DNA from: Hymenobacter sp. GOD-10R | GTDB taxonomy: Bacteria; Bacteroidota; Bacteroidia; Cytophagales; Hymenobacteraceae | Assembly: GCF_035609205.1 (NCBI RefSeq) | Contig: NZ_CP141184.1 | Location: 1,764,501-1,828,500, forward strand | DNA: 64,000 nucleotides | Direction of reading: 5' to 3' | Notes under the pieces: model-generated | The model's input: only the letters and a program-made list of their open reading frames with translations | The model's database searches: none | What the model was told of the DNA's origin: nothing | Program-made: the position numbers and the translations under genes | In this document: piece after piece, positions 46,841 through 64,000 of the stretch | How positions within the stretch are numbered: position 1 is the first letter of the stretch | Layout: each line of letters begins with the position of its first letter

Positions 46841-46862
46841 GGCCTAGGTTAATGAAAGGATG

Positions 46863-47026
46863 GTCATGCTGAGCTTGTCGAAGCATCTCGCCCGCTTCGT
46901 TGAACAAATCAAACATGCTCGTTCAATATGTTGGGGCTTAAACCCTAGCCTACTGGGCGGCCTTCTGGCAACCAAGATAGCTTGGCAACATCGACACGCG
47001 AGATGTTTCGGCAAGCTCAGCATGAC
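46863..47026. repeat. Inverted repeat, family A copy 2
   Basis: 29-bp arms (46863-46891 and 46998-47026) start with GTCATGCTGAGCTTGTCGAA. The spacer is longer than in A1 and has CGTTGAACA and CTCGTTCAA. It lies between dihydropyrimidinase and beta-ureidopropionase. Confidence 0.9.
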
Positions 47027-47078
47027 GTTCTGAATTGACATTCAACACGCAGTATTGAAAACTTAACACTTCACCGAT

Positions 47079-47945: not shown

Positions 47946-47977
47946 GCTAATTACTCTGCTCACCTTTCTTTTTCCAC

Positions 47978-48079
47978 CTGTCATCCTGAGCTTGCGAAGG
48001 ACCTTATCACGCATGAACGTGCCGTTATTGTAATAATCGTTCTCACGTGACAAGGTCCTTCGCAAGCTCAGGATGACAG
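47978..48079. repeat. Inverted repeat, family B copy 3
   Basis: The arms are like those of B1 and B2 and extend inward to GACCTTATCACG / CGTGACAAGGTC. The right arm contains an in-frame ATG at 48073, but that is not the start of preT. The spacer has only a decayed form of the shared core. Confidence 0.95.
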
Positions 48080-48126
48080 ACCAGGAAGATGTTAAGTGCC
48101 TTCTAATCTCTGCAATTACCTCTCCC

Positions 48127-49464: not shown

Positions 49465-49468
49465 AGCT

Positions 49469-49622
49469 AGGCTAGAAAACTCCCCTCCTTTTTTAAGGAG
49501 GGGTGCCCGAAGGGCGAGGTGGTGAAACTAGAATTAGAAAATTAGATCTAGTATCATTCAACGACAAGGAACCACCCCCAACCCCCTCCTTAAAAAAGGA
49601 GGGGAGCTAGGTTCTAGTTCTA
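49469..49622. repeat. Inverted repeat, family C copy 3
   Basis: Arms with CTCCCCTCCTTTTTTAAGGA and CACCCC/GGGGTG-type blocks enclose a spacer with ATTCAACGACAAGG. It begins just after the preT stop and fills the gap to preA, whose ATG is at 49680. Confidence 0.88.
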
Positions 49623-49679
49623 GCCTTCGCCCCGACCTAGCTTTTTAGCTCCTAGTCATAGCATCAAAATAGAACCACT

Positions 49680-51083
49680 ATGCCGGACCTCTCCATAAAC
49701 TTTGCTGGGATTAAGTCGCCGAACCCTTTCTGGTTGGCCTCCGCGCCGCCGACCAACTCCGGCTACCAAGTGATGAAAGCCTTCGATGCAGGCTGGGGCG
49801 GGGCGGTGTGGAAGACTCTAGGAGTGCCGGTTGTGAACGTGTCGAGCCGCTACGGTGGGGTGAACTACCGCGACAAGCGCCTGATTGGCTTCAACAATAT
49901 CGAGCTGATTTCGGACCGCCCCTTGGCCGACAACCTGCGCGAGATTGAGGAAGTGAAGAAGCGCTTTCCCAACCATGCCGTCATTGCCTCGCTCATGGTG
50001 CAGAGTCGGGATGAGTGGCACCAGATTGTGCGCGATGTGACCAACGCTGGCTCTGACGGTATCGAACTGAACTTCGGCTGTCCGCACGGCATGTGTGAAC
50101 GGGGCATGGGCTCGGCGGTCGGGCAGGAGCCGGAAGTGCTGCGCACGATTGTGGAGTGGGTGATGGAAGTGGCGCAGATTCCGGTTATTGTGAAGCTCAC
50201 GCCCAACATCTCCGACATCACCGAGCCCGCTCGCGCCGCTCGCCAAGGTGGCGCTGACGCCATTTCGCTCATCAATACCATTCAGAGCATTGTGGGTGTT
50301 GATCTGGACAGCTTCGCGCCCTATCCGATTGTGGATGGCAAAGGCACCAATGGGGGCTACTGCGGTCCGGCTGTGAAGCCCATTGCTCTGAATATGGTTA
50401 AGAACTGCGCCCAAGACCCGAACGTGCAGCTGCCTATTTCCGGCATCGGCGGCATTGAGAATTGGCGCGACGCAGTGGAACATATCTTGCTAGGAGCTAG
50501 CTCGGTGCAGGTGTGCACGGCGGCCATGCACTTCGGCTTTGGTATCATTCGCGAGATGACGGCGGGCCTGGAGCAGTACATGACGGAAAAAGGCTTCAAT
50601 ACCATCTACGACTTCGTGGGCAAGGCCTTGCCGAACGTGAAGCATTGGGAAGACCTAAACCTGAAGTACAAGGTGACGGCCAACATTCACGAGGAGAAGT
50701 GCATTGGCTGCCAACTGTGTTACACGGCCTGTGAGGACGGTGCGCACCAGGCAATCCGGTTGCGCGAAGGCACCCGCGTGCCCGAAATTATTGAGGAGAA
50801 CTGCGTGGGCTGTAACCTCTGCTCGCTCGTGTGCCCGGTGGAGCAGTGCATCACCATGGACCGCACCGACGCCGGCACCGAACACCTCACCTGGAAGGAG
50901 CGCACCGCCGCCAACAACATCCCGACCACCTTCAACGACGAGCGCGCCGGCGGCTTGCACCACTGGGTGCCTGAACCAGCCGCGGCGTTAGGAAAGGAGA
51001 AGCATAAAACCCTGCCTGGCAAAGCTAGGCAGCTAGGCAGTCCGGCTGCTGCTACGACAGCTTCGGATGTGCTAAGCGAATGA
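49680..51083 (+). CDS. preA: NAD-dependent dihydropyrimidine dehydrogenase subunit PreA
   Basis: The 467-residue protein has a DHOD-like FMN barrel. It includes IELNFGCPHGMCERGMGSAV, in which Cys134 matches the catalytic Cys of mammalian DPD, and ISGIGGIENWRDAVEHILLG for FMN phosphate. It ends with two [4Fe-4S] motifs, CIGCQLCYTACEDG and CVGCNLCSLVCPVEQC, followed by an Ala/Pro-rich tail. With PreT it catalyses the first step, reduction of uracil/thymine to the dihydro form. It is the last gene of the cluster. Confidence 0.95.
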   Translation: MPDLSINFAGIKSPNPFWLASAPPTNSGYQVMKAFDAGWGGAVWKTLGVPVVNVSSRYGGVNYRDKRLIGFNNIELISDRPLADNLREIEEVKKRFPNHAVIASLMVQSRDEWHQIVRDVTNAGSDGIELNFGCPHGMCERGMGSAVGQEPEVLRTIVEWVMEVAQIPVIVKLTPNISDITEPARAARQGGADAISLINTIQSIVGVDLDSFAPYPIVDGKGTNGGYCGPAVKPIALNMVKNCAQDPNVQLPISGIGGIENWRDAVEHILLGASSVQVCTAAMHFGFGIIREMTAGLEQYMTEKGFNTIYDFVGKALPNVKHWEDLNLKYKVTANIHEEKCIGCQLCYTACEDGAHQAIRLREGTRVPEIIEENCVGCNLCSLVCPVEQCITMDRTDAGTEHLTWKERTAANNIPTTFNDERAGGLHHWVPEPAAALGKEKHKTLPGKARQLGSPAAATTASDVLSE

Positions 51084-51199: not shown

Positions 51200-51205
51200 A
51201 GCTTC

Positions 51206-51332
51206 TAGCGCTGTAGAGACACATACTTGTGTCTCGTCGTTGCTGATGTTGTTTACCTAGGTTGTTCTAGGGTGAATGTTCTGACTTCATTCGTTCAACG
51301 ACGAGACACAAGTATGTGTCTCTACAGCGCTA
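51206..51332. repeat. Inverted repeat, family D copy 2
   Basis: 31-bp arms (TAGCGCTGTAGAGACACATA...) enclose the conserved D spacer: GTTGCTGATGTTGTTTACC, GTTGTTCTAGG, then TCGTTCAACGA at 51291-51301. It lies in the 465-bp gap (51084-51548) between preA and the eCIS locus. The remaining 216 bp before the first eCIS gene must hold its promoter, but no confident box was found. Confidence 0.93.
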
Positions 51333-51548: not shown

Positions 51549-52136
51549 ATGATCTACGAGGCATTAGCGATGATTTGCGCCGAGCTAAGAGCCTACATCA
51601 AGGCGTTCGATGCGACGGCGAATGTGGACCTAGGTAGCATCTGCGCGCCGGGCGCCGCTACTGATGCGTTGTTGCTGAGCCTGGTGAATGTGGAGGAAGA
51701 AAGCGCGCTGAAGAACAGCAGCCCCTATGTGCGCAACGCAGCCGGTAGCTTTGATTTGGTGAATCCGCCGGTGTTCCTGAACCTCTTCGTGCTGATTGGC
51801 ACCAGTTTCACCGACAACGGCACCTACGCTACGGCGCTAAAGCGGCTGGCCTGGGCGGTTCAGTGCTTTCAGCGCAAAAAGGAATTGAGCGTAGCTAACA
51901 CGCCCACCGACAGCCTGCCCGACGAAGCCTTGCGGCTGCGGCTGTCGCTGGACTTGTACTCGCTTTCGTTTGAAAAAATCAACCAACTGTGGGGCACGCT
52001 CGGCGGCAAGCAGGTGCCGTTTGTGGTGTACAAGGTGCGGGTGGTGGAAGAGCAGGCCGAAAGCCAATTTGGCACCGGCGCGGCCATTACCACGATCGAG
52101 GGGCGAACTGAGATTATCAACCCCACCTTAAACTGA
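51549..52136 (+). CDS. DUF4255 (Pvc16/Afp16-type) eCIS protein
   Basis: The 195-residue protein matches DUF4255 with the Pvc16_N pattern: MIYEALAMICAELRAYIKAF, LLSLVNVEEESALKN, the VNPPVFLNLFVLI core, and RLSLDLYSLSFEKINQLWGT followed by LGGKQVPFVVYKVR. In AFP/PVC particles the homologue caps the sheath-tube at its distal end. Here it is the first gene of the locus, a position seen in many Bacteroidetes eCIS. It is followed after 5 bp by the next gene, so they are translationally close. Confidence 0.9.
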   Translation: MIYEALAMICAELRAYIKAFDATANVDLGSICAPGAATDALLLSLVNVEEESALKNSSPYVRNAAGSFDLVNPPVFLNLFVLIGTSFTDNGTYATALKRLAWAVQCFQRKKELSVANTPTDSLPDEALRLRLSLDLYSLSFEKINQLWGTLGGKQVPFVVYKVRVVEEQAESQFGTGAAITTIEGRTEIINPTLN

Positions 52137-52141
52137 CGGTC

Positions 52142-52918
52142 ATGGCCATGCAACGCTTTGTTACGGGCTACGAAACGCTGTGCAGGGTACAGGTGCTGCA
52201 CCGCTACTTCCTGAACTTCGGCGCCACGCCGTTCGACCTAGCTAGCCCCACGCCCGCCCAGCAGAAAACCCTAGCGTTGGTGCGGGGCGACTACGACATC
52301 AGCAAGTTCTGGCGCATCGTGCCCGATGCGGCGACCCAGCTAGCGATGCGCAACGGCTGGATGGTATTCAAGAACCTGCCCGACGGCTTTCGGGTGGGCG
52401 TAATGACCGCCGCTCACCAGCCCGTCGTGCCCTTGGCCGACGATCTTACCTTGGTGTTTGCCATTTACCAGGCCGACACTTACTTCCCCTTATACACCGA
52501 CCTCGACCGCACGGTGCTAGACGGTCTTGCGAAGCAAAACCGCGTTTTTCGTTGGCACAATGTACCAGGTAGCCTCCGCCTGAATGCCGACGAAACCATT
52601 CGCCCCGCCGACTTGGAAACGCAACCAGCGACAACCGACCTAGGTAGCGGCCGACCGATTGGCTTCATCGAGATTCAGCACCGGCCAGCCGACGGCAATA
52701 GCCTGCTCGATGAAACCGGACAAGTGCAAGACCTAGCCTTTGAGGTAATTCTGCGCAACCGCTCTACGCAGTGGGAATACCGGGCCACTAACCTAGGCCA
52801 GTTTCCACTGGTGCACTACGGGCGCATCGGCGTAGCTTCCGACTCCACGCCGTTGCCGAATCCGACCCCTGCCACCACCACCGACCGGGGAACTCAGTTT
52901 GTCTCCATTATTTATTGA
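52142..52918 (+). CDS. Uncharacterised eCIS-locus protein
   Basis: The 258-residue protein is not recognised. It has an N-terminal segment MAMQRFVTGYETLCRVQVLH, with RYFLNFGATPFDLA, a beta-rich centre (LTLVFAIYQADTYFPLYTD, then VFRWHNVPGSLRLNADE), and a C-terminal IEIQHRPADG...LAFEVILRNRSTQWEYRATN region. No signal peptide or membrane helix is seen. It is locked between the DUF4255 gene (5-bp gap) and the sheath gene (24-bp gap), so it is almost certainly part of the particle or its assembly. The predominantly beta character fits a cap or collar component. A toxin role seems unlikely from position alone. Confidence 0.75.
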   Translation: MAMQRFVTGYETLCRVQVLHRYFLNFGATPFDLASPTPAQQKTLALVRGDYDISKFWRIVPDAATQLAMRNGWMVFKNLPDGFRVGVMTAAHQPVVPLADDLTLVFAIYQADTYFPLYTDLDRTVLDGLAKQNRVFRWHNVPGSLRLNADETIRPADLETQPATTDLGSGRPIGFIEIQHRPADGNSLLDETGQVQDLAFEVILRNRSTQWEYRATNLGQFPLVHYGRIGVASDSTPLPNPTPATTTDRGTQFVSIIY

Positions 52919-52942
52919 CGCCTTCTAATCCCTTTCAAGCGT

Positions 52943-54733
52943 ATGGCCAGCACTCTAAACCTAGCTTCCGTCAGGACGCCCGGCGTCTATATTGATGAGG
53001 TGTCGTTGTTTCCGCCCTCGGTGGCGCAGGTCGAAACCGCCATTCCGGTGTTTATCGGCCCCACACAGGACCACGTGAAAGACGGCCAGAGCATCCGCAA
53101 CGTGCCCACGCGCATCAAGTCGATGGTGGAGTACCGGCGCTATTTCGGCGGCGGCCCCGACCGGCAGGTGACGGTGCGGCTCGATGCGCTCAACAGCGTC
53201 AGCTCGGTCAATTTTGCCACGAGCTTCTATCTGCACGATAGCCTGATGATGTTCTTCGGCAACGGCGGGGAGAAGTGCTACATCGTGTCGCTGGGCAAGT
53301 ACACCGACGTGCTGACCCAAACCGACTACACCAACGCCCTCGACACGCTCAAGAAGTTTGATGAGCCTACGCTTATTGTGCTGCCCGATGCTCTAAACCT
53401 GACGGCAGCTGGTGCCGTGGCTACGGTGCAGCAAGCCGCTATTGATCATTGCCGGTACATGCAGGATCGGTTTGCGGTGCTCGATGTAAAGGTGGCCGAC
53501 CCCACCAAAATAGACCGGGACGACACGGATATTGACAACTTCCGCAACGGCGTTTCCAGTCACCTCAACTACGCCGCCGCTTATTATCCGTACCTGCGCA
53601 CCACCTTGCCGCTGACCATCAGCTTCGCCAATCTGACGATCAAAACCGGACCGGACCCTGGCACAACCAAAACGCTCGATGAGCTGTTGGACCCCGGCCC
53701 GGCCAAGGACCTAGCTACTGCAGCTAAGAACATCGTAACCGACCTAGGTGCCGTGACAGGTTTGTTGCCGGATATAACCGATTACCAAGCCGCCGCGAGC
53801 AAAGACGATAAGAAAACCTACTTGCTAGGTTTGCTGACGGCCTTCACCGGCGCAGCCGCTTTTACCGACCCGACAAACCAAACCGATTTCAACAACTACA
53901 TCAAAGAAAGCGCGCCAGCAACTTCCGATGGCTTAAAGCTGACCGCTCTGCGCGACGCCACCAACGCCCTGCAAACCAGCGGCGGCAGCGAATCGCCGCA
54001 GCCGCTTTTTGACAAGACCTTCGAGCAGATCAGCACCTACATCAGCGGCTTCCTGACCAAAGTGCAGGCTAGGTTGCAGGCCAAGGAAGTCGAGATGAAA
54101 TCAACGATTCCGCTGTACTCGGCCATGACGGCTGCGGCTGAAGCCATGGGCATTGTGCTGCCGCCGAGTGGCGCGGTAGTCGGTGCCTACGCCCGCACCG
54201 ACAACGACCGGGGCGTGTGGAAAGCGCCTGCCAACGTAGGCCTCAACTACGTGCTAGGTCCTACCGCGATGCTCACCGACAGCGAGCAGGAAGACCTCAA
54301 CGTCGACACCAACGCGGGCAAGTCGATCAACGCCATTCGTGCTTTCACTGGCAAAGGCACGCTGATCTGGGGTGCCCGCACCCTAGCCGGCTCCGACAAC
54401 GAATGGCGCTACGTGTCGGTGCGCCGCTTCTTCATTATGGTAGAAGAATCGGTGAAAAAAGCCTCCGCGCAGTTCGTGTTTGAGCCCAACGATGCCAACA
54501 CTTGGGTGAAGATACGGGCCATGATCGAGAACTTCCTGACACTGCAATGGCGAGCCGGTGCGCTGGCCGGCATGAAGGCCGAACATGCGTTTTTCGTCCG
54601 CGTTGGCCTAGGTCAAACCATGACCGCCCAAGACATTCTCAACGGCTTCATGATCGTGGAAATTGGCATGGCCGTAGTGCGCCCCGCTGAGTTTATCATC
54701 CTGCGCTTCTCGCATAAGATGCAGGAGTCATAA
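52943..54733 (+). CDS. Contractile tail sheath protein of an eCIS
   Basis: The 596-residue protein has sheath signatures at both ends: N-terminal SVRTPGVYIDEVSLFPPSVA followed by TAIPVFIGPTQ, and C-terminal SVRRFFIMVEESVKKASAQF, VFEPND, LTLQWRAGALAGM and a last IGMAVVRPAEFIILRFSHKM. These C-terminal parts interlock between subunits in contractile sheaths. The middle (residues about 200-400) is a variable surface insertion. AFP and PVC carry several sheath genes, whereas only this one is seen here. It is followed by repeat C4 and the tube genes. Confidence 0.95.
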   Translation: MASTLNLASVRTPGVYIDEVSLFPPSVAQVETAIPVFIGPTQDHVKDGQSIRNVPTRIKSMVEYRRYFGGGPDRQVTVRLDALNSVSSVNFATSFYLHDSLMMFFGNGGEKCYIVSLGKYTDVLTQTDYTNALDTLKKFDEPTLIVLPDALNLTAAGAVATVQQAAIDHCRYMQDRFAVLDVKVADPTKIDRDDTDIDNFRNGVSSHLNYAAAYYPYLRTTLPLTISFANLTIKTGPDPGTTKTLDELLDPGPAKDLATAAKNIVTDLGAVTGLLPDITDYQAAASKDDKKTYLLGLLTAFTGAAAFTDPTNQTDFNNYIKESAPATSDGLKLTALRDATNALQTSGGSESPQPLFDKTFEQISTYISGFLTKVQARLQAKEVEMKSTIPLYSAMTAAAEAMGIVLPPSGAVVGAYARTDNDRGVWKAPANVGLNYVLGPTAMLTDSEQEDLNVDTNAGKSINAIRAFTGKGTLIWGARTLAGSDNEWRYVSVRRFFIMVEESVKKASAQFVFEPNDANTWVKIRAMIENFLTLQWRAGALAGMKAEHAFFVRVGLGQTMTAQDILNGFMIVEIGMAVVRPAEFIILRFSHKMQES

Positions 54734-54756
54734 GCTAGAGCGAGACTAAAAGGAAA

Positions 54757-54910
54757 GCTAGGTCTAGCAGCTAGTTCTCCTCCTTTTTTCAAGGAGGGGT
54801 GCCCGCAGGGCGGGGTGGTCCTTCTCGTTGAACGATCTAGCTCTAGCCTAACCACCCCGGCCTTTGGCCACCCCTCCTTGAAAATAGGAGGGGAGCTTTC
54901 TAGACCTAGC
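54757..54910. repeat. Inverted repeat, family C copy 4
   Basis: Arms with CTCCTCCTTTTTTCAAGGAG and GGGGTGG/CCACCCC blocks enclose TCGTTGAACGA at 54825-54835. It lies in the sheath-tube junction inside the eCIS operon. A frame that starts at 54815 inside it is not the tube start. Confidence 0.9.
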
Positions 54911-54961
54911 TCTAGCCTCCCAGCTCCTGATCATAAATCACCCTTATTCCCCCTGTGCAAA

Positions 54962-55396
54962 ATGGCAAGCTATCCATTACCGAAATTCCACTTTCAGGTG
55001 GAGTGGGGCGGCTCCAAGGTCAGCTTCACGGAAGTGACCGGGCTGAACGTCGAAACGGACGTGATTGAGTACCGCGACGGGGCCTCGCCGGAGTTCCATA
55101 AGATCAAGATGCCGGGCTTGCAGAAGTTTCCGAACGTGACGCTCAAGCGCGGTACCTTCCGCAGCGACAACGAATTCTTCAAGTGGTGGAACACCGTAGC
55201 GCTCAACACTATCGAGCGCCGCGATCTGACCATCAGCCTGCTCAACGAGCGCCACGAGCCGGTAGTGGTTTGGAAAATCAAGCAGGCATGGCCGTCCAAA
55301 GTCATGTCGGGCGACCTGAAGGCTGATGCCAACGAGGTGCTGATTGAAAGCATTGAGCTGGTTCACGAAGGCCTCAGCATCCAGAACGGCGACTAA
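54962..55396 (+). CDS. Tail tube protein 1 (gp19/Afp1 family)
   Basis: The ATG at 54962 gives 144 residues of the T4-gp19-like tube family: FHFQVEWGGSKVSFTEVTGL with NVETDVIEYRDGAS, then LKRGTFRSDNEFFKWWNT, RRDLTISLLNE and WKIKQAWPSKVMSGDLKADA, with an ending in LIESIELVHEGL. It would build the inner tube inside the sheath. An upstream frame extension runs through repeat C4 and has no family similarity. Confidence 0.94.
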   Translation: MASYPLPKFHFQVEWGGSKVSFTEVTGLNVETDVIEYRDGASPEFHKIKMPGLQKFPNVTLKRGTFRSDNEFFKWWNTVALNTIERRDLTISLLNERHEPVVVWKIKQAWPSKVMSGDLKADANEVLIESIELVHEGLSIQNGD

Positions 55397-55399
55397 CCC

Positions 55400-55849
55400 A
55401 TGACTGGCCTGATCTACCCCCCAACTGGCTTTCACTTCTTGGTTGGTTTCGAGCTGTTTCCGCAGACGTTGCAAGACGCACGCTTTCAGGAGGTAAGCGG
55501 CCTGAATGTAGAAATGCAAATGGAAAGCGTGCGAGAAGGCGGCGAAAACCGCTTCGAGCACCAGCTGCCAGTGCGCTCCAAGTACGCCGATCTGGTCCTA
55601 AAACGCGGCCTGCTAATCGGCTCGGGCGTGTACCAGTGGGCCAAAAACGCCTTCGAGGATTTCACCTTCCAGCCCGTGAACCTGATTGTATCGCTGCTAA
55701 ATGAGCAGCACGCGCCCTTGCTCTCGTGGCACGTGGTGCATGCCTTGCCAAAGAAGTGGGACGTTTCATCCTTCAACGCCGAGCAAAACACCATTGCCAT
55801 CGAAACACTGACACTTACCTACCGCTACTACAACACCATCAGAATCTAA
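55400..55849 (+). CDS. Tail tube protein 2 (gp19-like)
   Basis: The 149-residue protein is a second gp19-like member: FHFLVGFELFPQTLQDARFQ with EVSGLNVEMQMESVREGGEN, LVLKRGLLIGSGVYQWAKNA and the ending IAIETLTLTYRYYNTIRI. It resembles Afp5/Pvc5-type proteins, which join tube and baseplate, more than the main tube protein. It starts 3 bp after tube 1, so the two are tightly coupled. The role split between the two is inferred. Confidence 0.9.
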   Translation: MTGLIYPPTGFHFLVGFELFPQTLQDARFQEVSGLNVEMQMESVREGGENRFEHQLPVRSKYADLVLKRGLLIGSGVYQWAKNAFEDFTFQPVNLIVSLLNEQHAPLLSWHVVHALPKKWDVSSFNAEQNTIAIETLTLTYRYYNTIRI

Positions 55850-55852
55850 TAC

Positions 55853-56017
55853 ATGCCTATTGTAATCAAAGAGTTAGTTATCACGGCCGTCGTTGATGGT
55901 AACGCGGATCAGCACGCCACATCAGCCGCCACAGCTTCTCCCGAAGCGCAGCAACAGATCATTCAAGTCTGCGTGGAGCAGGTGCTAGCGATTCTGGAAG
56001 AGAAGAAGGAGCGGTAG
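55853..56017 (+). CDS. DUF5908 family small eCIS protein
   Basis: The 54-residue frame opens with ATG at 55853, 3 bp after the tube 2 stop, and reads MPIVIKELVITAVVDG. It has a low-complexity middle (ATSAATASPEAQQQ) and a helical C-terminus (IIQVCVEQVLAILEEKKER). Small proteins with the MPIVIKELVI opening are DUF5908 members, found in Bacteroidetes eCIS loci after the tube genes. Its function is not known. The position between tube and LysM baseplate genes fits a small assembly or plug component. Confidence 0.82.
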   Translation: MPIVIKELVITAVVDGNADQHATSAATASPEAQQQIIQVCVEQVLAILEEKKER

Positions 56018-56020
56018 AAA

Positions 56021-56121
56021 GTAGCGCGAAGCTCCCGCTTCGCGCATCGTTGAACGACTAAAGCTAGGTGTCGCTCCAACGATTTCGTTCAACGCCGCGC
56101 GAAGCTGGAGCTTCGCGCTAC
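56021..56121. repeat. Inverted repeat, family H
   Basis: Arms GTAGCGCGAAGCTCCCGCTT... and the complement each also form their own hairpin (GCGCGAAGC/GCTTCGCGC). The spacer has TCGTTGAACGA at 56047-56057 and TCGTTCAACG near the right arm. It starts 3 bp after DUF5908 and ends 12 bp before the LysM gene's ATG. Confidence 0.9.
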
Positions 56122-56133
56122 AACAAACTTTTT

Positions 56134-56832
56134 ATGCTCGGCGAACTGAAGAAAATGACCCTGACGGGCTACCAGAACGACCGGTTCGACCAGCCGACAG
56201 GAGACGTGTACACGGCCGTGGTCAACCCGGAAACCTACACGCTCAACTACGAGATTCAGAGCAACCAGGAGCAGGCCAGCGGCACGAGCGCCAACCAGCC
56301 GGCCTTCAACCGCATTGCGCCGCGCAAGTTAGAGTTCGAGTTCCTGTTCGATTCGACCGGCGCCTTGCAGCAAACGGGGCTAGCCCTGCCGCTCAGCGTG
56401 GGCACGAACCAGGGCGTGTGGGACCAGGTCGAGCAGTTCAAGAAGACGGTGTTCTACTACAACGGCAGCACGCACCAGCCGCCGTTCGTGATTCTGGAGT
56501 GGGGCAAGCTGCGCTTCAAGTGCAAGCTGGAAAAGGTGAGCGTCACCTACAAACTGTTCAAGCCCGACGGCACGCCCATCCGGGCTGTGGCCAAAGCTAG
56601 CTTCATCGAGACAACCAACGACGATCTGCGCGTAGCCCAGGAAAACGCCCGCTCCCCCGACCTGACCCACGTGCGCACCGTGCAAGCCGGCGACAACCTG
56701 CCGCTGCTGTGCCACCGCATTTACGGCGACGCCACGCTGTATGGCGAGGTAGCTAGGGTCAATCACCTCATCAACTTTCGCACGCTTACGGTGGGGCAAC
56801 AGCTCTTTTTTCCACCCATTGAAAAGGCTTGA
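56134..56832 (+). CDS. LysM-domain eCIS baseplate protein (Afp7/gp53-like)
   Basis: The ATG at 56134 gives 232 residues. The N-terminal part (GELKKMTLTGYQNDRFDQPT, TAVVNPETYTLNYEIQS, then VILEWGKLRFKCKLEKVSVT) is the family core that packs at the tube-baseplate junction. The C-terminal LysM-type domain (about 175-230) has VQAGDNLPLLCHRIYGDATL and LTVGQQLFFPP. In AFP/PVC the homologue joins the first tube ring to the spike. A GTG at 56068 lies in repeat H and is not used. Confidence 0.92.
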   Translation: MLGELKKMTLTGYQNDRFDQPTGDVYTAVVNPETYTLNYEIQSNQEQASGTSANQPAFNRIAPRKLEFEFLFDSTGALQQTGLALPLSVGTNQGVWDQVEQFKKTVFYYNGSTHQPPFVILEWGKLRFKCKLEKVSVTYKLFKPDGTPIRAVAKASFIETTNDDLRVAQENARSPDLTHVRTVQAGDNLPLLCHRIYGDATLYGEVARVNHLINFRTLTVGQQLFFPPIEKA

Positions 56833-56850
56833 GTAACGCTTCGTTGCACA

Positions 56851-56954
56851 GTGTAGAGACACATACTTGTGTCTCCCCGTTGAACGACAGCACCAGAACG
56901 AACCAGTATAAACAACATCACCAACGATTGAGACACAAGTATGTGTCTCTACAC
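56851..56954. repeat. Inverted repeat, family D copy 3
   Basis: 24-bp arms (GTGTAGAGACACATACTTGT and complement) are nearly perfect. Read on the minus strand, the spacer matches the other D spacers. CGTTGAACGA is at 56878-56887. The right arm ends 4 bp before the VgrG ATG, the closest contact between a repeat and a start codon in the window. Confidence 0.92.
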
Positions 56955-56958
56955 GCAG

Positions 56959-58716
56959 ATGCCCGAAAATCCGCGCACACCCGACACGCCCGCTCCGCGC
57001 GACCTGCCCACCTTCACCGTGAAGGTAGAGGGCCAGGCCTTGGCGCGAGCTTACCAGGTGTTGGCGGTACGCGTGCAGAAAGAAGCCAATCGCATCCCAA
57101 CAGCGCACATCGTGCTGAAAGATGGTAGCGCAGCCGCGGGCACGTTTCCGGCCAGCAACGCGGACTTGTTTGTGCCCGGCCGTAAAGTGGAAGTGTGGGC
57201 GGGTTACCACGAAAAAGAGCAGCTGATCTTCAAAGGCTTGATTATCAAACACGCCATTGAAGCGCGCACCACCGGCACCACGCGCCTGAACGTGACCTGC
57301 AAGGATGCTTTCGTGAAAACCACCTTAGCCCCCAAGCGCCGCTACTTCCTGGATAAGAAAGATAGCGAAGTGGCTGAGCAGATTGTGGAGGCGTATAGCG
57401 GCCTCACCCTAGATGCCACAGCCACCACCTCGAAGCACGAAGAGCTGCTACAATACGACGCCACCGACTGGGATTTCATGGTGATGCGGGCCGAGGCCAA
57501 CGGTATGCTCTGCCTGGTAGATGATGGCAAGTTGACCATCACCAAACCCAAGCTAGATCAAGCCCCCATAACTAAGCTGCAATTCGGCGCAACGGTGCTG
57601 GACTTCGACGCCGAAATCGACGCCCGCGACCAGCTTAGCAGCCTCACCACAACGACTTGGGACTACAGCGAGTCGAAAATGGCCAAAGCCGAAGCCGCCG
57701 AACCTAACTTCAAGCAGCAAGGCAACCTCTCGGCCGACAACCTAGCCGAAGCGCTTGGCACCAAGCTGACGCTACAACATGGTGGCTACTTGCCAACTGG
57801 GGAGCTGCAAGCCTGGGCCGATGCGACGCTACTCAAGCGCCGACTCGCGAAGATTCGGGGACGGATACGGTTCTACGGCAACGCCGATGTGAAGCCGGGA
57901 ACCATCATCAATCTAGCTGGCATGGGCGAACGGTTCAACGGTGATGCTTACGTGACGGGTGTAAACCACCGGCTGGAAAGCGGCAGCTGGACCACTGATG
58001 CGCAGTTTGGGTTGAATCCGCAGCCGTTTGCAGCGGAGGTGAACGTGAGTACGCTGCCGGCTGGTGGCTTGCTGCCGTCTGTGTCTGGGCTCCAGATCGG
58101 AACAGTGACGGCCCTAGAAGGCGACGCGGCAGGGGAGGAGCGCATTGCGGTGCGGCTGCCCATACTCGATGCGGCCGGCACCGGCAGCCGGGCCCGCGTG
58201 CTGAGCGTGGATGCTGGCAACCAGCGCGGCTTCTACTTCCGCCCTGAAGTTGGCGATGAAGTAGTGGTTGGCTTTCTCAACAACGACCCGCGGGAAGCCG
58301 TGGTGCTCGGCGGCTTGCACAGCAGCCACAACCCTATCCCCGCGCCCTTCAAAACCGCCGATGCGAATCCGAAGAAAGGCTATGTGTCGCGCAGCAAGCT
58401 GCAAGTGGTATTCGACGACGAGAAAAAGAGCCTCACACTGGAAACGCCCGCCGGCAATATATTCAAGCTAGATGATGATGCGCAGAGCATCACGCTGCAA
58501 GATCAGCACGGCAACAAGATCGTGATGAGTGACGCCGGCATCAGCTTGGAGAGCATCAAGGACGTGATTATCAAAGCGGCTGTGGATGTGAAAGTCAACG
58601 GCGTAAACGTGACGCACACGGCCCAAACGCAATTCAAAGCCAGCGGCTCCGGCACCGCCGAAGTGAGCAGCAGCGGCAACACAACGATTAAAGGTGCTAT
58701 GGTTCAGATTAACTAA
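56959..58716 (+). CDS. VgrG-like spike protein (Afp8 type)
   Basis: The 585-residue protein combines a gp27-like region (about residues 15-340: PTFTVKVEGQALARAYQVLA, then CKDAFVKTTLAPKRRYFLDK and YDATDWDFMVMRAEANGMLC) with a gp5-like OB domain (about 375-450: IGTVTALEGDAAGEERIAVR, GFYFRPEVGDEVVVGF). A beta-helical C-terminus follows (KLQVVFDDEKKSLTLETPAG, then ISLESIKDVIIKAAVDVKVN). It forms the trimeric spike under the tube. No extra C-terminal toxin domain is present. It ends with the helix, as PAAR-bound spikes do. Confidence 0.95.
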   Translation: MPENPRTPDTPAPRDLPTFTVKVEGQALARAYQVLAVRVQKEANRIPTAHIVLKDGSAAAGTFPASNADLFVPGRKVEVWAGYHEKEQLIFKGLIIKHAIEARTTGTTRLNVTCKDAFVKTTLAPKRRYFLDKKDSEVAEQIVEAYSGLTLDATATTSKHEELLQYDATDWDFMVMRAEANGMLCLVDDGKLTITKPKLDQAPITKLQFGATVLDFDAEIDARDQLSSLTTTTWDYSESKMAKAEAAEPNFKQQGNLSADNLAEALGTKLTLQHGGYLPTGELQAWADATLLKRRLAKIRGRIRFYGNADVKPGTIINLAGMGERFNGDAYVTGVNHRLESGSWTTDAQFGLNPQPFAAEVNVSTLPAGGLLPSVSGLQIGTVTALEGDAAGEERIAVRLPILDAAGTGSRARVLSVDAGNQRGFYFRPEVGDEVVVGFLNNDPREAVVLGGLHSSHNPIPAPFKTADANPKKGYVSRSKLQVVFDDEKKSLTLETPAGNIFKLDDDAQSITLQDQHGNKIVMSDAGISLESIKDVIIKAAVDVKVNGVNVTHTAQTQFKASGSGTAEVSSSGNTTIKGAMVQIN

Positions 58717-58736
58717 CCTATTCAAAACCAATTACA

Positions 58737-59033
58737 ATGGGACAGCTAGCCGCCCGCGCCAGTGATATGCATGTTTGTCCGATGGTAAATCCGGGTGGCG
58801 CGCCCCATGTGGGTGGCCCGGTGCTGCCGCCGGGTGCTCCCAATGTGCTGATTGGCGGTATGCCCGCGGCTCGCGTCGGTGACCTAGCTACTTGCTCTGG
58901 TCCGCCGGATAGCATCATCAAAGGCTCAGCAACGGTGATGATCGGGGGCGCGCCCGCGGCCCGCCTTGGCGATACGACGGCGCACGGCGGAAGTATTGTA
59001 ATCGGTTGTCCTACTGTGCTAATCGGCGGATGA
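58737..59033 (+). CDS. PAAR-domain tip protein
   Basis: The 98-residue protein is a single PAAR domain: RASDMHVCPMVNPG, VLIGGMPAARVGDLATCSGP, VMIGGAPAARLGDTTAHGGS and a final IGCPTVLIGG. The conserved His and Cys residues would bind a zinc ion at the tip. It caps the spike and helps puncture the target membrane. It lies 20 bp after the spike gene and ends 1 bp before the gp25 start. Confidence 0.95.
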   Translation: MGQLAARASDMHVCPMVNPGGAPHVGGPVLPPGAPNVLIGGMPAARVGDLATCSGPPDSIIKGSATVMIGGAPAARLGDTTAHGGSIVIGCPTVLIGG

Positions 59034-59034
59034 C

Positions 59035-59496
59035 ATGGCAAATCTCGAAGCAAATTTCCTAGGTCGCGGCTGGAGCTTTCCGCCCACCTTCAACCCCAAT
59101 CTGCACCCGAAAGGCGTGGAGATGACCACGGGACTGGAAGATATTGAGCGCAGCTTGCAAATCCTGCTGACCACGCGGCTGAATGAGCGCATCCTAGTCC
59201 ACGACTTCGGCTGCGACCTACAAGATGCCGTGTTTCAACCGCTAGATACGACCCTGGAAACGCGCCTGAAAGACCTCGTGAGCACGGCCATTTTGTACTA
59301 CGAGGCGCGCATTGATCTGCTGAATGTGACGGCCACGGAACCTCCTCAACAACCTGGCTTGCTGCTGATTGAAGTCGAGTTTAAAGTGCGCGCTACAAAC
59401 GCACGCCACAACTTCGTCTACCCATTTTACAAGCAAGAAGGCACCGAACTCGCCCTCTCCAACGCTGGCCCCACGGCGACCCCTGTAGTCCGCTAA
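59035..59496 (+). CDS. GPW/gp25 baseplate protein
   Basis: The 153-residue protein has the gp25 fold signature: EMTTGLEDIERSLQILLTTR, LNERILVHDFGCDLQDAVFQ, and LLLIEVEFKVRATNARHNFV. gp25 links baseplate wedges to the sheath and starts sheath assembly in phages and eCIS. The ATG overlaps closely with the PAAR stop (1-bp gap). The length is normal for the eCIS version. Confidence 0.93.
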   Translation: MANLEANFLGRGWSFPPTFNPNLHPKGVEMTTGLEDIERSLQILLTTRLNERILVHDFGCDLQDAVFQPLDTTLETRLKDLVSTAILYYEARIDLLNVTATEPPQQPGLLLIEVEFKVRATNARHNFVYPFYKQEGTELALSNAGPTATPVVR

Positions 59497-59516
59497 CCTG
59501 ACTCGTTTTCCGCCCC

Positions 59517-62500
59517 ATGTCAACCAACTGCCCCGATACGAATCCGTTGCAACGGGAAGGCCTAAGCCAGCCACAGCGCCGCCTTGCGGCCTTGCAGCCG
59601 GCCTATGTCAGCCTCGACGAACGCTCGCCGGAGGACCTGTTGCAGTTTGCGAAGGCATATGCGGAGAAAGCTAGGGTGCGGTTTTTTGACCTAACCGGTA
59701 CGCCCGACAACGGCGAAGCATGGCGGGTGCTGATGAACTACGAAAACTACGTGCAGCCCGCCGAGCTGGACAGCCGTAGCGACATCGAGCCGCATTTCGC
59801 ACTGTTCCTCACCTTCTTACAGCTGTTTGGCTACGCTCAGCAGCACCTCAACTCGCTCACCAAGCGCCACCTCGATTTCTACTACAAAGAGGTACTGCAA
59901 CTCACTAATCAGGCGTCCGTGCCCGACCGCGTGCACGTGGTGTTCGAGCTAGCCAAGAATGTCGCGGAACAGATCGTGCCGGCCCAAACCGAACTCGACG
60001 CTGGCCGCGACCTAAAGAAGCAGCCGCTACTCTATGAAACCACCGAAAACCGGACGGTAAACCAGGCCAAGATTGCCCACCTGCGCACCCTCTACGTGCA
60101 CAGCGACCAAACCATCTACTACGCGCCCGCCGCCAACACACAAGATGGTATTGCCAAGCCCCTCGACAAAGACGACCCTACCTGGAATGCTTTCGGGCCG
60201 AAACATAAGCCGCTCGTCAGCTGCGAACCGCCCACGCCCGAGACCATCAATCTGCCGGAAGCGCAGCTAGGTTTTGCCTTGGCTTCGTCGATTTTGTTGC
60301 TGGCGGAAGGCGAGCGGAAGATTACGATAAAGCTAGCTTTAGCCCAAACAGCTAGTGTGCCAGCAGGCATTAAGTTGCGAGTGCAGCTCAGCGGAGCCAA
60401 AGCTTGGATTGAAGCGGGTGAAGCAGAACTAACTAAATCGGGCAACGACCTCACGTTCAGCGTCACGCTGCCCATCACCGAAAAGCAGGCCGTGGTAGCG
60501 TACAACGCGGCCGTGCTCGATGGCGGCTACATCACCACGGCGCCGGTGCTACGCTGCTACCTCGGTCGTTCCGCTGATTATTCCGTGCTGCGAAACTTAA
60601 CGCTGCAATCGGCGAAGATCGACGTGAGCGTGACGGGGCTGAAAAAGACCCTGCTGCTCGAAAACGACCTAGGTAGTCTCAACCCCGAAAAACCGTTCAT
60701 GCCCTTTGGGCCGACGCCGGTAGTCGGCTCGACGCTGTACGTGGGTAGCCCGGAGGCTTCAGCTAAGCCCTTGACTTCCGTGACCGTACACCTGCCGGAG
60801 TGGGTTGGCAAACCTGGCTCCTGGAGTTCGTACTACAATGCGTACGGCAGCAGCTACAAAGACATATCTAAGTTCACAGCCACCGCTACGCTGCAAAACA
60901 GCAGTCTGGCCGGTAGCCACACGGCGGCGCTGTTCAGCGCGTTTTCCAGCCTGAGCGTGCCGGATACCACGACCACAAGCAGCGCGGGTTCGTCGGTGCT
61001 GACGAGCTATTCGGGGTTCAGCCTCTACAAAGACTACGTGTTTTCGGGCGGCGTTTTTCAGGCCGTGTCGCCGCAGTTTTATCTCGCCAATAGTCTTACG
61101 CTGAGCGAAACTTCCGTTAGTGATAGTCTGCTGAAAATCGAGCTCAATCACAGCTTTGGGCATAGGTCGTACCCAAAGAAGCTCACGAATGCCATTGTCG
61201 CTGATCCGAAGGTCGAGATTCCCAATCCGCCTTACACGCCGGTGGCGAAGGAGCTGACGCTCGATTACCTAGCTTCTACCGGTGCCGTGTCGCTCACCTC
61301 CACGAGTGCCGAAGACTTTACCAGTCGTGACCTTCAGCTATTTCATAGCACGCCATTCGGGCAAGCGGAGGAACACGCTTTTCTGAAGCAGAACCTAGCT
61401 TTTCTGGATAATACGTCGAAGAACAGCGCCTTCCTGCTTCCGCAGCTAGCTTTAGGTGGTACGTTCCTAATAGGTTTACAGAATATTGGCACTTTGGAAA
61501 GCGTCGCCGTGCTATTCCAGGTTGCCGAAGGCAGCGCCAACCCCGAGCGCGCCGTAGCAACGGTAGCTTGGAGCGTGCTGAGCCAGAATCAGTGGCGCCG
61601 CCTCACGGAAGAGGAAGTACTGAGCGACGCTACGAACCACCTGCTGACCTCGGGCATCATTCAGTTTTATCTTCCTCCCGAAACCCGCACCGACAACACG
61701 CTGCTCGAAGCCGGCCTAGTCTGGCTCAAAGCCGAGTTGCTGACCACCGTCGGCAGCCCCGCGCCCATCGATAGCGCGAGCAACTTGGTGGCTTTGCACC
61801 CGCAAGCTAGCCTCGCCGTCTTCCACGACCACGGCAACGACCCGAGCCACTATGATGCGGCGCTGCCCGCCGACACCATCAGCAAAACGCGGCAGAGCCT
61901 AGCTGGGCTGAAGGCGGTGCACCAGCCGTATGCCTCGTTCGGTGGGCGACCTGCCGAGCCTGATGCGGCCTTTTACACCCGCGTGAGCGAGCGGCTGCGG
62001 CACAAGCAGCGCACCGTCACGATTTGGGACTACGAGCATTTGATTTTGCAGTCATTTCCTGGGGTGTACAAGGTGAAATGCCTGAACCACAGTCGGCTGG
62101 ACGCTAGCTTCAAGCTGCATGAGCTAGCTCCGGGCTACGTGACGGTGGTGGTCGTGCCGGATTTGCGCAACGCGCATGCTATCAACCCGCTGGAGCCGAA
62201 AGTGGACCTGAATACACTGGCGGCTATCCAGGATTTCTTGCAGCGCCACGCGGGTAAGCTCGTTGGCATTCAGGTAGTGAACCCAGCTTACGAGCGGGTG
62301 AAGCTGCATTTCAAGGTGCAGTTTCTACGCGGCTACGCTTTCGCGACTTACCGCAAGAAGCTCCAACAAGACCTGCTAGCCTATCTCTCGCCCTGGGCCT
62401 TCGACACCAGCGCCGAGATTCCCTTTGGCGGCACGCTGACCAAGAGCGCGGTTATCAACTACATCGAGCGGCTGCGCTACGTCGATTTCGTCACTGACCT

Positions 62501-62636
62501 GACCATGCAGCACTTCACCACCAACCCCACGGTGCGCGATGATAATGAGGTAATTACTGCCTCCGACGCTCGGGCTGTGCTCGTGTCCTGTAGCCAACAC
62601 GATATTCAACTCTTCACCGAGCCCTGCACCTCATGA
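59517..62636 (+). CDS. Baseplate J-like (gp6/Afp11) wedge protein
   Basis: The 1039-residue protein has an N-terminal baseplate segment (YVSLDERSPEDLLQFAKAYA, then FALFLTFLQLFGYAQQHLNS) and a large beta-rich middle. The C-terminal J-like region has FYTRVSERLRHKQRTVTIWD, YEHLILQSFPGVYKVKCLN, YVTVVVVPDLRN and PFGGTLTKSAVINYIERLRY. It is expected to be the main wedge component of the baseplate. Its TGA overlaps the ATG of the next gene (ATGA at 62633-62636), so the two are translationally coupled. Confidence 0.9.
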   Translation: MSTNCPDTNPLQREGLSQPQRRLAALQPAYVSLDERSPEDLLQFAKAYAEKARVRFFDLTGTPDNGEAWRVLMNYENYVQPAELDSRSDIEPHFALFLTFLQLFGYAQQHLNSLTKRHLDFYYKEVLQLTNQASVPDRVHVVFELAKNVAEQIVPAQTELDAGRDLKKQPLLYETTENRTVNQAKIAHLRTLYVHSDQTIYYAPAANTQDGIAKPLDKDDPTWNAFGPKHKPLVSCEPPTPETINLPEAQLGFALASSILLLAEGERKITIKLALAQTASVPAGIKLRVQLSGAKAWIEAGEAELTKSGNDLTFSVTLPITEKQAVVAYNAAVLDGGYITTAPVLRCYLGRSADYSVLRNLTLQSAKIDVSVTGLKKTLLLENDLGSLNPEKPFMPFGPTPVVGSTLYVGSPEASAKPLTSVTVHLPEWVGKPGSWSSYYNAYGSSYKDISKFTATATLQNSSLAGSHTAALFSAFSSLSVPDTTTTSSAGSSVLTSYSGFSLYKDYVFSGGVFQAVSPQFYLANSLTLSETSVSDSLLKIELNHSFGHRSYPKKLTNAIVADPKVEIPNPPYTPVAKELTLDYLASTGAVSLTSTSAEDFTSRDLQLFHSTPFGQAEEHAFLKQNLAFLDNTSKNSAFLLPQLALGGTFLIGLQNIGTLESVAVLFQVAEGSANPERAVATVAWSVLSQNQWRRLTEEEVLSDATNHLLTSGIIQFYLPPETRTDNTLLEAGLVWLKAELLTTVGSPAPIDSASNLVALHPQASLAVFHDHGNDPSHYDAALPADTISKTRQSLAGLKAVHQPYASFGGRPAEPDAAFYTRVSERLRHKQRTVTIWDYEHLILQSFPGVYKVKCLNHSRLDASFKLHELAPGYVTVVVVPDLRNAHAINPLEPKVDLNTLAAIQDFLQRHAGKLVGIQVVNPAYERVKLHFKVQFLRGYAFATYRKKLQQDLLAYLSPWAFDTSAEIPFGGTLTKSAVINYIERLRYVDFVTDLTMQHFTTNPTVRDDNEVITASDARAVLVSCSQHDIQLFTEPCTS

Positions 62637-64000
62637 GCGAGAGCATCACCATATCGACCGCGCCGCCGGAGTGGAAAGCCTCGGATTGGGAAGCGCTGCG
62701 CGAGGCAGGGCTAGCCTACATTGAGCAGTACGCCCACACGCTCTGGACCGACTACAACCGCCACGACCCCGGTATCACCACGCTGGAGCTGCTGTGCTAC
62801 GCCATTACTGACCTGAGCCAGCGCACGGCGCTGGATATAAAGGACTTGCTCACGTCCTCGTACGGCAGCGCGGCCCAGATGCAGGCTAGCTTCCCGACCG
62901 TAGCGCAGGTGCTGCCGACGTGCCCCGTGTCGGAGCTGGACTACCGCAAGCTGTTTATCGACCTAGAGGGTGTGCGCAATGCCTGGCTGGCGAAAGCCGC
63001 GCCTGCTCAAACCATCTACGTCAACGCCAAAGAAGCTGACCCGCACAAGCGCCTGAGCCGCACGCCGGTGCCGGGCAGTTCGCTCTCCTTCGATCTGAAT
63101 GGATTGTATGACCTGAAAATCGACTTAGATCCGTATTTTATTGCAGAAGAAGTAGAAGCCGGCCATGCCGCCGATGAGGCTGCGGCCCGCAAGGCAGTGC
63201 TGGAAAAAGTCCGGGGAACCTACGTGGCGCACCGCGACTTGTGCGAAGATTACGCGTTGATTGCGGAAGTGCCGGTGCAGAAAATCATGTTCTGCGCTGA
63301 TGTCGATCTAGCCCCAGATGCTAATGTGAGCGAGGTCTACGCCCAGATTTTGCTAGTCGTGAATCAGTACCTAGCTCCGCCCATAAAGCGCTATTCGCTG
63401 GCTGAGATGCAAGCCAAAACCGACGCCGACGGCAACCCGCTCACGATAGACCAGATCTTCGAAGGGCCGCTGCTGGAAACTGGGTTCATCCTGGATAGTG
63501 AGCTGGAAGCCAGCGAGCTGCGCCGCGTAGTGTATACCTCCGACCTCATCAACCTGATTATGGGGATAGAAGGGGTGGAAGGGCTAAGAAAGGTGCAGCT
63601 AAACGAGTTGATTGAAGAAGCTGGCAAGCCGTGCACGGATTGGAAAACCAAGGACTCCACGGGGCACCGGTGGTGCCTGCCGATCCGCGAAGGGTATCAG
63701 CCGCAGCTTTGCGCCGAGCGAGTAGCCCTAGCTTTCTACAAAGACATTATCCCAGTCGGGAGCCTTGCCGATAAGAAGAAAGCCTTGCTGCGCCTCGCGG
63801 AGCTGGAAAAAGCTGCTTACCAAGCCAATCAGAAGCAGGTGAACGACTTGCCAGTGCCCACCGGCGCCGTGTACGCGCTGAACGAGTATCGCTCGGTGGC
63901 CAATGACTTTCCGCAGAACTACGGCATCGGTCCTTACGGGCTGCCCGACTCAGCCTCTGGGGAGCGCCACAGTCAGGCCAAGCAGCTGAAGGGATACCTG
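62633..64000 (+). CDS. Second baseplate wedge protein, Afp12-like (partial)
   Basis: The frame begins with ATG at 62633, overlapping the previous stop, and stays open to the window end (456 codons). It starts MSESITISTAPPEWKASDWE and soon has DYNRHDPGITTLELLCYAIT followed by DLSQRT, a phrase found in eCIS and phage wedge proteins after the J-like gene. It continues with LRRVVYTSDLINLIMGIEGV and a C-rich DWKTKDSTGHRWCLP region. The C-terminus is outside the window. It is the last visible gene of the eCIS locus. Confidence 0.88.
   Translation, partial: MSESITISTAPPEWKASDWEALREAGLAYIEQYAHTLWTDYNRHDPGITTLELLCYAITDLSQRTALDIKDLLTSSYGSAAQMQASFPTVAQVLPTCPVSELDYRKLFIDLEGVRNAWLAKAAPAQTIYVNAKEADPHKRLSRTPVPGSSLSFDLNGLYDLKIDLDPYFIAEEVEAGHAADEAAARKAVLEKVRGTYVAHRDLCEDYALIAEVPVQKIMFCADVDLAPDANVSEVYAQILLVVNQYLAPPIKRYSLAEMQAKTDADGNPLTIDQIFEGPLLETGFILDSELEASELRRVVYTSDLINLIMGIEGVEGLRKVQLNELIEEAGKPCTDWKTKDSTGHRWCLPIREGYQPQLCAERVALAFYKDIIPVGSLADKKKALLRLAELEKAAYQANQKQVNDLPVPTGAVYALNEYRSVANDFPQNYGIGPYGLPDSASGERHSQAKQLKGYL

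Follow-up and report, generated by a model that had tools for sequence, protein, structure and literature searches.

What kind of contractile machine is encoded at the end of a 64,000-nucleotide stretch of the Hymenobacter sp. GOD-10R chromosome, and what might it carry? The stretch, hereafter the window, comprises bases 1764501-1828500 of a 6.76-Mb contig in a genome of 7.5 Mb, and a first-pass annotation made from its sequence had read the genes from 51549 onwards as an extracellular contractile injection system (eCIS). The genes characteristic of contractile injection systems (CISs) lie together in one operon, which supports that reading and allows it to be refined: the locus is probably a complete, maintained CIS of the AlgoCIS type (clade Ib, a placement that rests on pairwise scores of the parts), whose particles are most likely released outside the cell. 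Twelve genes, counted from the start of the operon, fall inside the window, the 12th being cut off, and all point in one direction on the + strand, as do those described below past the window end. The operon runs on to approximately 75.2 kb, such that position 64000 is the end of the window only; coordinates above it continue the window numbering into the neighbouring chromosome sequence. No paper in the collection searched joined "contractile injection system" with "Hymenobacter".

The locus is assigned to the AlgoCIS type, and not to a generic Afp/PVC type, because it includes a cap adaptor, a spike-cage region and an Alg19-like fibre. The Alg16B-like cap adaptor (258 amino acids; 52142-52918) corresponds to an open reading frame (ORF) that the first-pass annotation left unnamed. 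It has no Pfam match, but residues 9-123 of its 258 match the cap adaptor in PDB entry 7adz at 4.2e-8, the next match being at 0.14. The Alg11-like J protein (1039 amino acids; 59517-62636; Baseplate_J, 7.6e-8; PDB 7aeb_G, 4.8e-156) aligns with residues 100-489 and 532-1039 of Alg11, and thereby covers residues 278-489 and 532-643 of the spike-cage extension, whose limits in Alg11 are residues 278-643. The fibre gene at 65642-68671 encodes a protein whose residues 22-616 match a PKD-domain protein, PDB 9wt0, at 2.4e-58; this chain is presumably Alg19, and All3314 of Anabaena also matches. Among solved structures, AlgoCIS provides the closest relative for the cap adaptor and also for the sheath, spike, Alg11, Alg12 and fibre, with the thylakoid-anchored CIS (tCIS) of Anabaena second for the latter five. 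Specifically, the contractile sheath (596 amino acids; 52943-54733; Pfam sheath families, 2.8e-12 and 4.3e-10) matches the AlgoCIS sheath at 2.9e-135 and All3325 at 1.2e-125, and the VgrG-like, Alg8-like spike (585 amino acids from the likely ATG; 56959-58716; Phage_base_V, 4.1e-18; Phage_GPD, 2.1e-10) matches PDB 7aef at 8e-172 and All3320 at 1.4e-164. Pfam families were called at their curated cut-offs throughout. The E-values, together with a gene order that is kept in other genomes, exclude chance as an explanation. The AlgoCIS of Algoriphagus machipongonensis, as described in PMC8894135 and PMC13314943, has the same parts, including a cap adaptor, a plug, a cage-bearing Alg11 and an Ig/PKD-type fibre.

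Phages also have these families of sheath, tube and baseplate proteins, and the operon might accordingly be taken for a prophage tail remnant or a tailocin. The Pvc16_N, DUF5908, CIS_tube, CIS_TMP and AAA ATPase genes are CIS-type parts, however, which already contradict a phage reading, and no phage family was recognised among ten ORFs neighbouring the operon. In particular, no capsid, terminase or integrase family was found in these ten ORFs, three of which gave no match of any kind, in keeping with the first-pass argument against a phage. We regard a phage-derived structure as extremely improbable. The same argument had been made against a type VI secretion system (T6SS), and a profile search of the genome for the VipB/TssC sheath (PF05943), with a positive E. 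coli control, found none, although TssJLM and ClpV were not searched for. The genome encodes one Pvc16_N protein and one sheath C-terminal domain.

A more serious alternative is that the same genes build an intracellular or membrane-anchored machine, as in the Anabaena tCIS, T6SSiv or the Streptomyces CIS, which would target the membranes of the producer itself or, through contact, adjacent cells. The Anabaena proteins All3325, All3315, All3317, All3320 and All3314 match the Hymenobacter parts nearly as well as their AlgoCIS counterparts do; tCIS scores come close to those of AlgoCIS for the sheath, spike and Alg12, and for the cap they are higher. The Alg16A/Pvc16-like cap protein (195 amino acids; 51549-52136) contains Pvc16_N, which we take to be the former DUF4255, at 2.7e-30, and is closer to All3327 of the thylakoid-anchored system (2.8e-29) than to the AlgoCIS cap (1.4e-15). 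Gene sets similar to this one serve thylakoid-anchored CISs and T6SSiv, so that release mode cannot be read from the genes. The cap scores weigh against an extracellular particle, and likeness to AlgoCIS is a weak argument against an anchored machine since no gene separates the modes. The host belongs to the Bacteroidota and has no thylakoid. The thylakoid-anchored tCIS is the subject of PMC8894136, and Tme-type effectors of Streptomyces act on their producer according to PMC11126660. On the other side, the fibre, Alg11 and cap adaptor are nearest to those of AlgoCIS, itself found in supernatants (PMC8894135), and the cap adaptor match was seen for AlgoCIS only and not for the tCIS. On balance an anchored or intracellular machine seems unlikely, and a released AlgoCIS-type particle is the reading that we prefer.

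The remaining parts complete this machine. The DUF4255, sheath, two tube, DUF5908, VgrG-like spike, PAAR, gp25 and J-like genes named in the first-pass annotation were all recovered in the same order, on the + strand and above the Pfam cut-off. Downstream of the sheath lie inner tube 1 (144 amino acids; 54962-55396; Phage_T4_gp19, 2.2e-49), which is 100% identical in the main comparator genome G013, probably H. cavernae, and inner tube 2, the tube initiator (149 amino acids; 55400-55849; Phage_T4_gp19, 1.2e-40). A 54-residue DUF5908 protein (55853-56017; 4.3e-18) follows in the plug position; its gene position and the AlgoCIS gene set in PMC8894135 suggest that it is the Alg6-like plug. The Alg7-like hub, or tube-spike adaptor (232 amino acids from the likely ATG; 56134-56832; CIS_tube, 2.2e-51), is the gene annotated earlier as LysM: the hub itself is present, but its LysM-like tail matches LysM2_NFP at 0.015 and Phage_tail_X at 0.014, both below the Pfam cut-off. 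Beyond the spike gene are a PAAR tip (98 amino acids; 58737-59033; PAAR_motif, 1.7e-26) and a gp25-like baseplate protein (153 amino acids; 59035-59496; GPW_gp25, 1.9e-21). The proposed Afp12-like gene (895 amino acids; 62633-65320, crossing the window end) has no convincing Pfam match, but it matches Algo12 of AlgoCIS at 1.5e-138 and All3315 at 1e-131; the Alg11-like and Alg12-like proteins are the wedge components of the baseplate. The expectation that cargo and a tail fibre would lie just past the window also held. Inspection of the sequence past 64000 revealed, in addition to the fibre, a CIS tape-measure protein (68680-70053; Pfam CIS_TMP), a 1259-residue cargo candidate (70075-73854) and an AAA ATPase (73868-75184; Pfam).

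To what extent is this machine maintained? From cap to fibre the proteins are 88-100% identical to those of G013, with the tape-measure protein at 69% and the ATPase at 77%. The 15 non-cargo eCIS genes contain no internal stops and have ratios of nonsynonymous to synonymous substitution rates (dN/dS) of 0 to 0.163 against G013, by which these 15 genes are under purifying selection; the reading frame of the cargo gene is open. Synonymous divergence (dS) from G013 lies between 0.27 and 0.64 for the genes from cap to Alg12 and reaches 0.76 for the fibre and 1.29 for both the tape-measure protein and the ATPase. We set aside a recombination tract read from these values, as the neighbouring ankyrin and glycosidase genes also range over 0.54-1.40 when dS is taken in windows, and relied on protein identity and BLAST junctions instead.

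Within the genus, Pvc16_N was found in 23 of 120 genomes surveyed. Loci were retrieved for 18 of the 22 positive genomes other than our own, making 19 loci in all, with four genomes assembled in 310-600 contigs (G091, G096, G100 and G107) left out. The AlgoCIS-like type with cap adaptor and fibre accounts for eight of the 19 loci, ours included. A second eCIS type, represented by nine loci (L133-L134, L137-L142 and L145-L154, from G053, G051, G117, G023, G067, G015, G016, G106 and G105), gave no cap-adaptor or fibre match, and its tape-measure domain resides in a protein of 1140-1937 residues; the ruler may there be fused with another function. The two others (G104 and G118) are partial or different. 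In G062 (L123-L124), which has many split genes and was compared piece by piece, the sheath, Alg11, Alg12, fibre, tape-measure and cargo genes are each in two or more frames, reflecting either decay or sequencing error.

Searches of Pfam, NCBIfam and the PDB gave nothing notable for the 1259-residue protein between the tape-measure protein and the ATPase. Its position corresponds to that of Cgo1 and Cgo2, described in PMC8894135 as downstream genes of AlgoCIS, and by this analogy we infer that it is the cargo. Residues ~170-945 form a trunk that begins rich in charged residues and turns hydrophobic further on (Kyte-Doolittle maxima at 658-686 and 888-906), and that is common wholly or partly to at least 36 other proteins among the matches listed, from Hymenobacter, Spirosomataceae, Tenacibaculum, Nostoc and Streptomyces among others. 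Tme and Sle1 of Streptomyces are likewise long, with stretches that are disordered, coiled-coil-like and hydrophobic, and have a toxin domain at the C-terminus that varies (PMC11126660 and PMC13277306); the Streptomyces protein P0040 shares the trunk. Alternatively, the protein might not be injected at all, serving instead as a second ruler or lumen scaffold with a remnant C-terminal domain. Two trunk relatives do score against phage tape-measure families in PHROGs (P0021, 4.5e-8; P0040, 0.0075), and the protein could function alongside the CIS tape-measure protein that the operon encodes; the Hymenobacter protein itself matched none of these families, which counts against our overall reading. 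However, the C-terminal domain varies between loci while the trunk is common, as in polymorphic toxins, the motif residues of that domain are conserved across 11 proteins, and AlgoCIS Cgo1 and Cgo2 disappear from the lumen upon contraction, according to PMC8894135. A structural role without injection is therefore, to our judgement, quite improbable, and we continue to treat the protein as the putative cargo.

This cargo differs from characterised ones in lacking DUF4157. AlgoCIS has two DUF4157 cargoes (PMC8894135) and the present locus one candidate without the domain; Tme carries DUF4157 and Sle1 has a DUF4157 partner (PMC11126660 and PMC13277306), neither of which was found in the Hymenobacter sp. 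GOD-10R genome. The cargo gave no score for DUF4157 even with filters off. Nor did the whole genome yield a match; control genomes gave none either, but the same search across the genus exceeded the threshold for 47 of 120 genomes. A large share of these matches are weak and partial, with 23 of 120 at 5e-9 or better. Twenty of the 23 Pvc16-positive genomes have a strong match, the exceptions being our own, G091 (83% complete) and G100 (92% complete, weak match only). Four eCIS-core cargo proteins share the linker, toxin domain and/or trunk with ours: P0003 from H. terricola, P0004 from H. cavernae, P0005 from H. jejuensis and P0006 from H. sp. BT188. All keep DUF4157, with the HExxH motif in P0003 and P0004 but without it in P0005 and P0006. 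These two are close relatives of our cargo, which keeps only the alignable start of the domain, and the alignment indicates that DUF4157 was eroded rather than replaced. A swapped-in N-terminus was considered and rejected, as close relatives have this very trunk joined to DUF4157.

In a wider survey, the best 80 of 303 trunk relatives from a species-genome scan were examined with flanks of at most 10 kb, often less, using a DUF4157 profile of our own built from 9 of 16 named proteins, the seed pattern having missed 5 and P0005 and P0006 being excluded on purpose. DUF4157 was in the same protein at 43 of these 80 loci, only in a flanking neighbour at 12 and in neither at 25. The trunk adjoins at least one eCIS structural gene at 50 of the 80, where the corresponding counts are 28, 12 and 10. 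Cargo without nearby DUF4157 thus recurs, and ours is not unique in this respect; the notable feature is that a search of the entire genome found no DUF4157.

The cargo is a mosaic within an otherwise conserved operon. Its trunk is 71% identical to that of G086 (H. sp. BT188) and 29% to that of G013; the structural proteins of G086 are only 29-64% identical to ours. The linker at residues 951-1000 is identical to that of H. cavernae P0004 at 47 of 50 positions, and the last 219 residues, the toxin domain, are 61% identical to G115 (H. terricola) and 39% to G013. At the DNA level, a BT188-like stretch ends at 72898 and a G013-like stretch begins at 72916 by BLAST. On these comparisons the simplest reading would be that the cargo was assembled by recombination between eCIS lineages, leaving the machine unchanged.

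The toxin domain was found in 6 of the 120 genus genomes, in five at 6e-7 or better and in G116 at 9e-4; the eCIS marker is present in the five and absent from G116. A search with the BT188 copy added seven proteins, all with DUF4157. Alignment with distant relatives revealed an HNH-like pattern in which D-H ends one strand and N lies in the helix after a second, and two actinobacterial relatives keep cysteines resembling zinc ligands. A model of the BT188 domain (pLDDT 88.8; 17 sequences; 36% identical to our domain) has the expected strand-strand-helix, with D154-H155 ending strand 151-155 and N199 in helix 196-202 after strand 191-195, plus a small N-terminal barrel. Several results weigh against a nuclease: our domain has no Pfam match, the two actinobacterial relatives match PF01844 at 0.010 and 0.014, both under the cut-off, and fold searches gave no significant match and neither confirmed nor excluded HNH. 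We judge the domain likely to be active as a nuclease.

If so, how would the producer be protected? The probable start codon of the ATPase gene follows the stop codon of the cargo gene after 13 bases, which leaves no room for another gene, and in the five Hymenobacter loci with the toxin domain the ATPase frame begins within ~100 bases of the cargo end. Of 30 listed cargo-ATPase pairs, 12 have exactly one intervening ORF of 162-450 codons, which is a candidate immunity or adaptor gene, and nine loci (ten rows, one being counted twice as G086 and L032) have a gap of less than 100 bases. Loci with a single intervening ORF include L034, L039, L102, L104 and L106 as well as other trunk loci.

The ATPase may itself have been drawn into the cargo exchange. 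Compared with G013, its residues 1-190 are 59% identical and residues 191-438 are 90% identical, versus 86% and 93% in a control pair, G086 and G062, whose sheaths are equally similar (96%) and which share a cargo type. A bolder idea is that other parts have here taken over the loading and self-protection suspected of DUF4157: loading would need nothing but the trunk, and the ATPase N-terminal domain would serve the HNH toxin domain as its dedicated chaperone or immunity factor, exchanged with it between lineages. The short cargo-ATPase distances in the five loci speak for it, as do the following identities. The N-terminal domain of G086 and G062 is 55-60% identical to that of G000 and G115 versus 46-52% to that of their sheath relatives G032, G045 and G042, whereas the C-terminal domain shows the reverse (58-63% versus 76-82%). 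Against this, the G013 N-terminal domain is no outlier (49-52% to G086 and G062), and plain recombination of neighbouring DNA would also explain the pattern. Tracking of toxin class by this domain was suggestive in eight Hymenobacter loci, but no general covariation was detected over 26 loci: of the 325 pairs compared, the 49 with a common tail had a mean residual of -0.001 versus 0.000 (permutation p 0.55), with L032 (a duplicate of G086) and L053, L057 and L093 (ATPase frame outside 400-510 amino acids) dropped from the 30 rows. We hold the combined idea to be very doubtful.

Some polymorphic toxin systems have immunity proteins of the ankyrin type, and an ankyrin protein is encoded at 75341-75829, a short way behind the ATPase. 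Were it the immunity protein of the toxin domain, the weapon would be antibacterial. Yet it is 90% identical in G013, where the toxin domain is 39% identical, and the retrieved stretches of G115, G086 and G062, all of which carry this toxin domain, yielded no homologue of it; we accordingly judged it a poor candidate, with very little chance of being the immunity gene. A bacterial target of the system is plausible by analogy all the same: AlgoCIS, for which PMC8894135 reports no sensitive target in first tests, was later seen binding and puncturing Echinicola pacifica through its fibres (PMC13314943).

The operon also contains wide gaps with strong palindromes, at 51205-51332, 54733-54961, 56018-56133 and 56833-56958, and at 65321-65641 past the window. 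Folding of four gaps gave z-scores of -6.4 to -12.9. In the sheath/tube, plug/hub, hub/spike and Alg12/fibre gaps, strong hairpins are also present in G013 and G115 (z-scores of -4.3 to -12.8); in G086, G032 and G042 they are not the rule. For three of the four gaps, BLAST did not match our sequence to those of G013 or G115, and the hairpins thus appear to belong to different repeat families in the same places. They might set mRNA stability between the high-copy sheath and tube genes and the low-copy baseplate genes, or might be tolerated insertion sites. The palindromic repeat of ~105 bases at 56020-56125 has at least 82 genome matches on both strands (40 of 107 candidates scored), and by its sequence looks to be a dispersed element like the repetitive extragenic palindromes (REPs).

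Outside the operon, the ankyrin gene is followed by a GH1-type protein (76028-77338), and both downstream neighbours are common to our genome and G013; in the stretch read, the upstream genes differ. Upstream, at 45464-51083, are an amidohydrolase, a carbon-nitrogen hydrolase and two proteins fitting parts of dihydropyrimidine dehydrogenase, which from their families look like a pyrimidine-degradation set.

Together, these observations suggest a possible mode of action. The coiled-coil-like, hydrophobic trunk would hold the cargo in the tube lumen and, rather than DUF4157, would suffice for its loading, with assistance from the ATPase. The fibre would dock the particle on a target cell, followed by opening of the cage, contraction of the sheath and delivery of the cargo by the tube, and the last 219 cargo residues would then work as a nuclease of the HNH type.

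Machines of this type have already been characterised, and the locus adds a Hymenobacter example; what stands out is a mosaic, nuclease-like cargo without DUF4157, the eCIS cargo marker. Roles proposed for DUF4157 include loading, release, export, chaperone activity and self-protection (PMC8213781, PMC11297309 and PMC11495950), and PMC8213781 describes as a mystery why immunity genes are missing for antibacterial eCIS toxins. Here the machine is intact, the cargo is nuclease-like, the genome search detected no DUF4157 and the cargo gene is followed immediately by that of the ATPase, so that the requirement for DUF4157 can be asked directly. Our locus and that of G013, with nearly the same machine and different cargo, constitute a natural swap experiment, and the cargo makes the questions of DUF4157 and of immunity testable.

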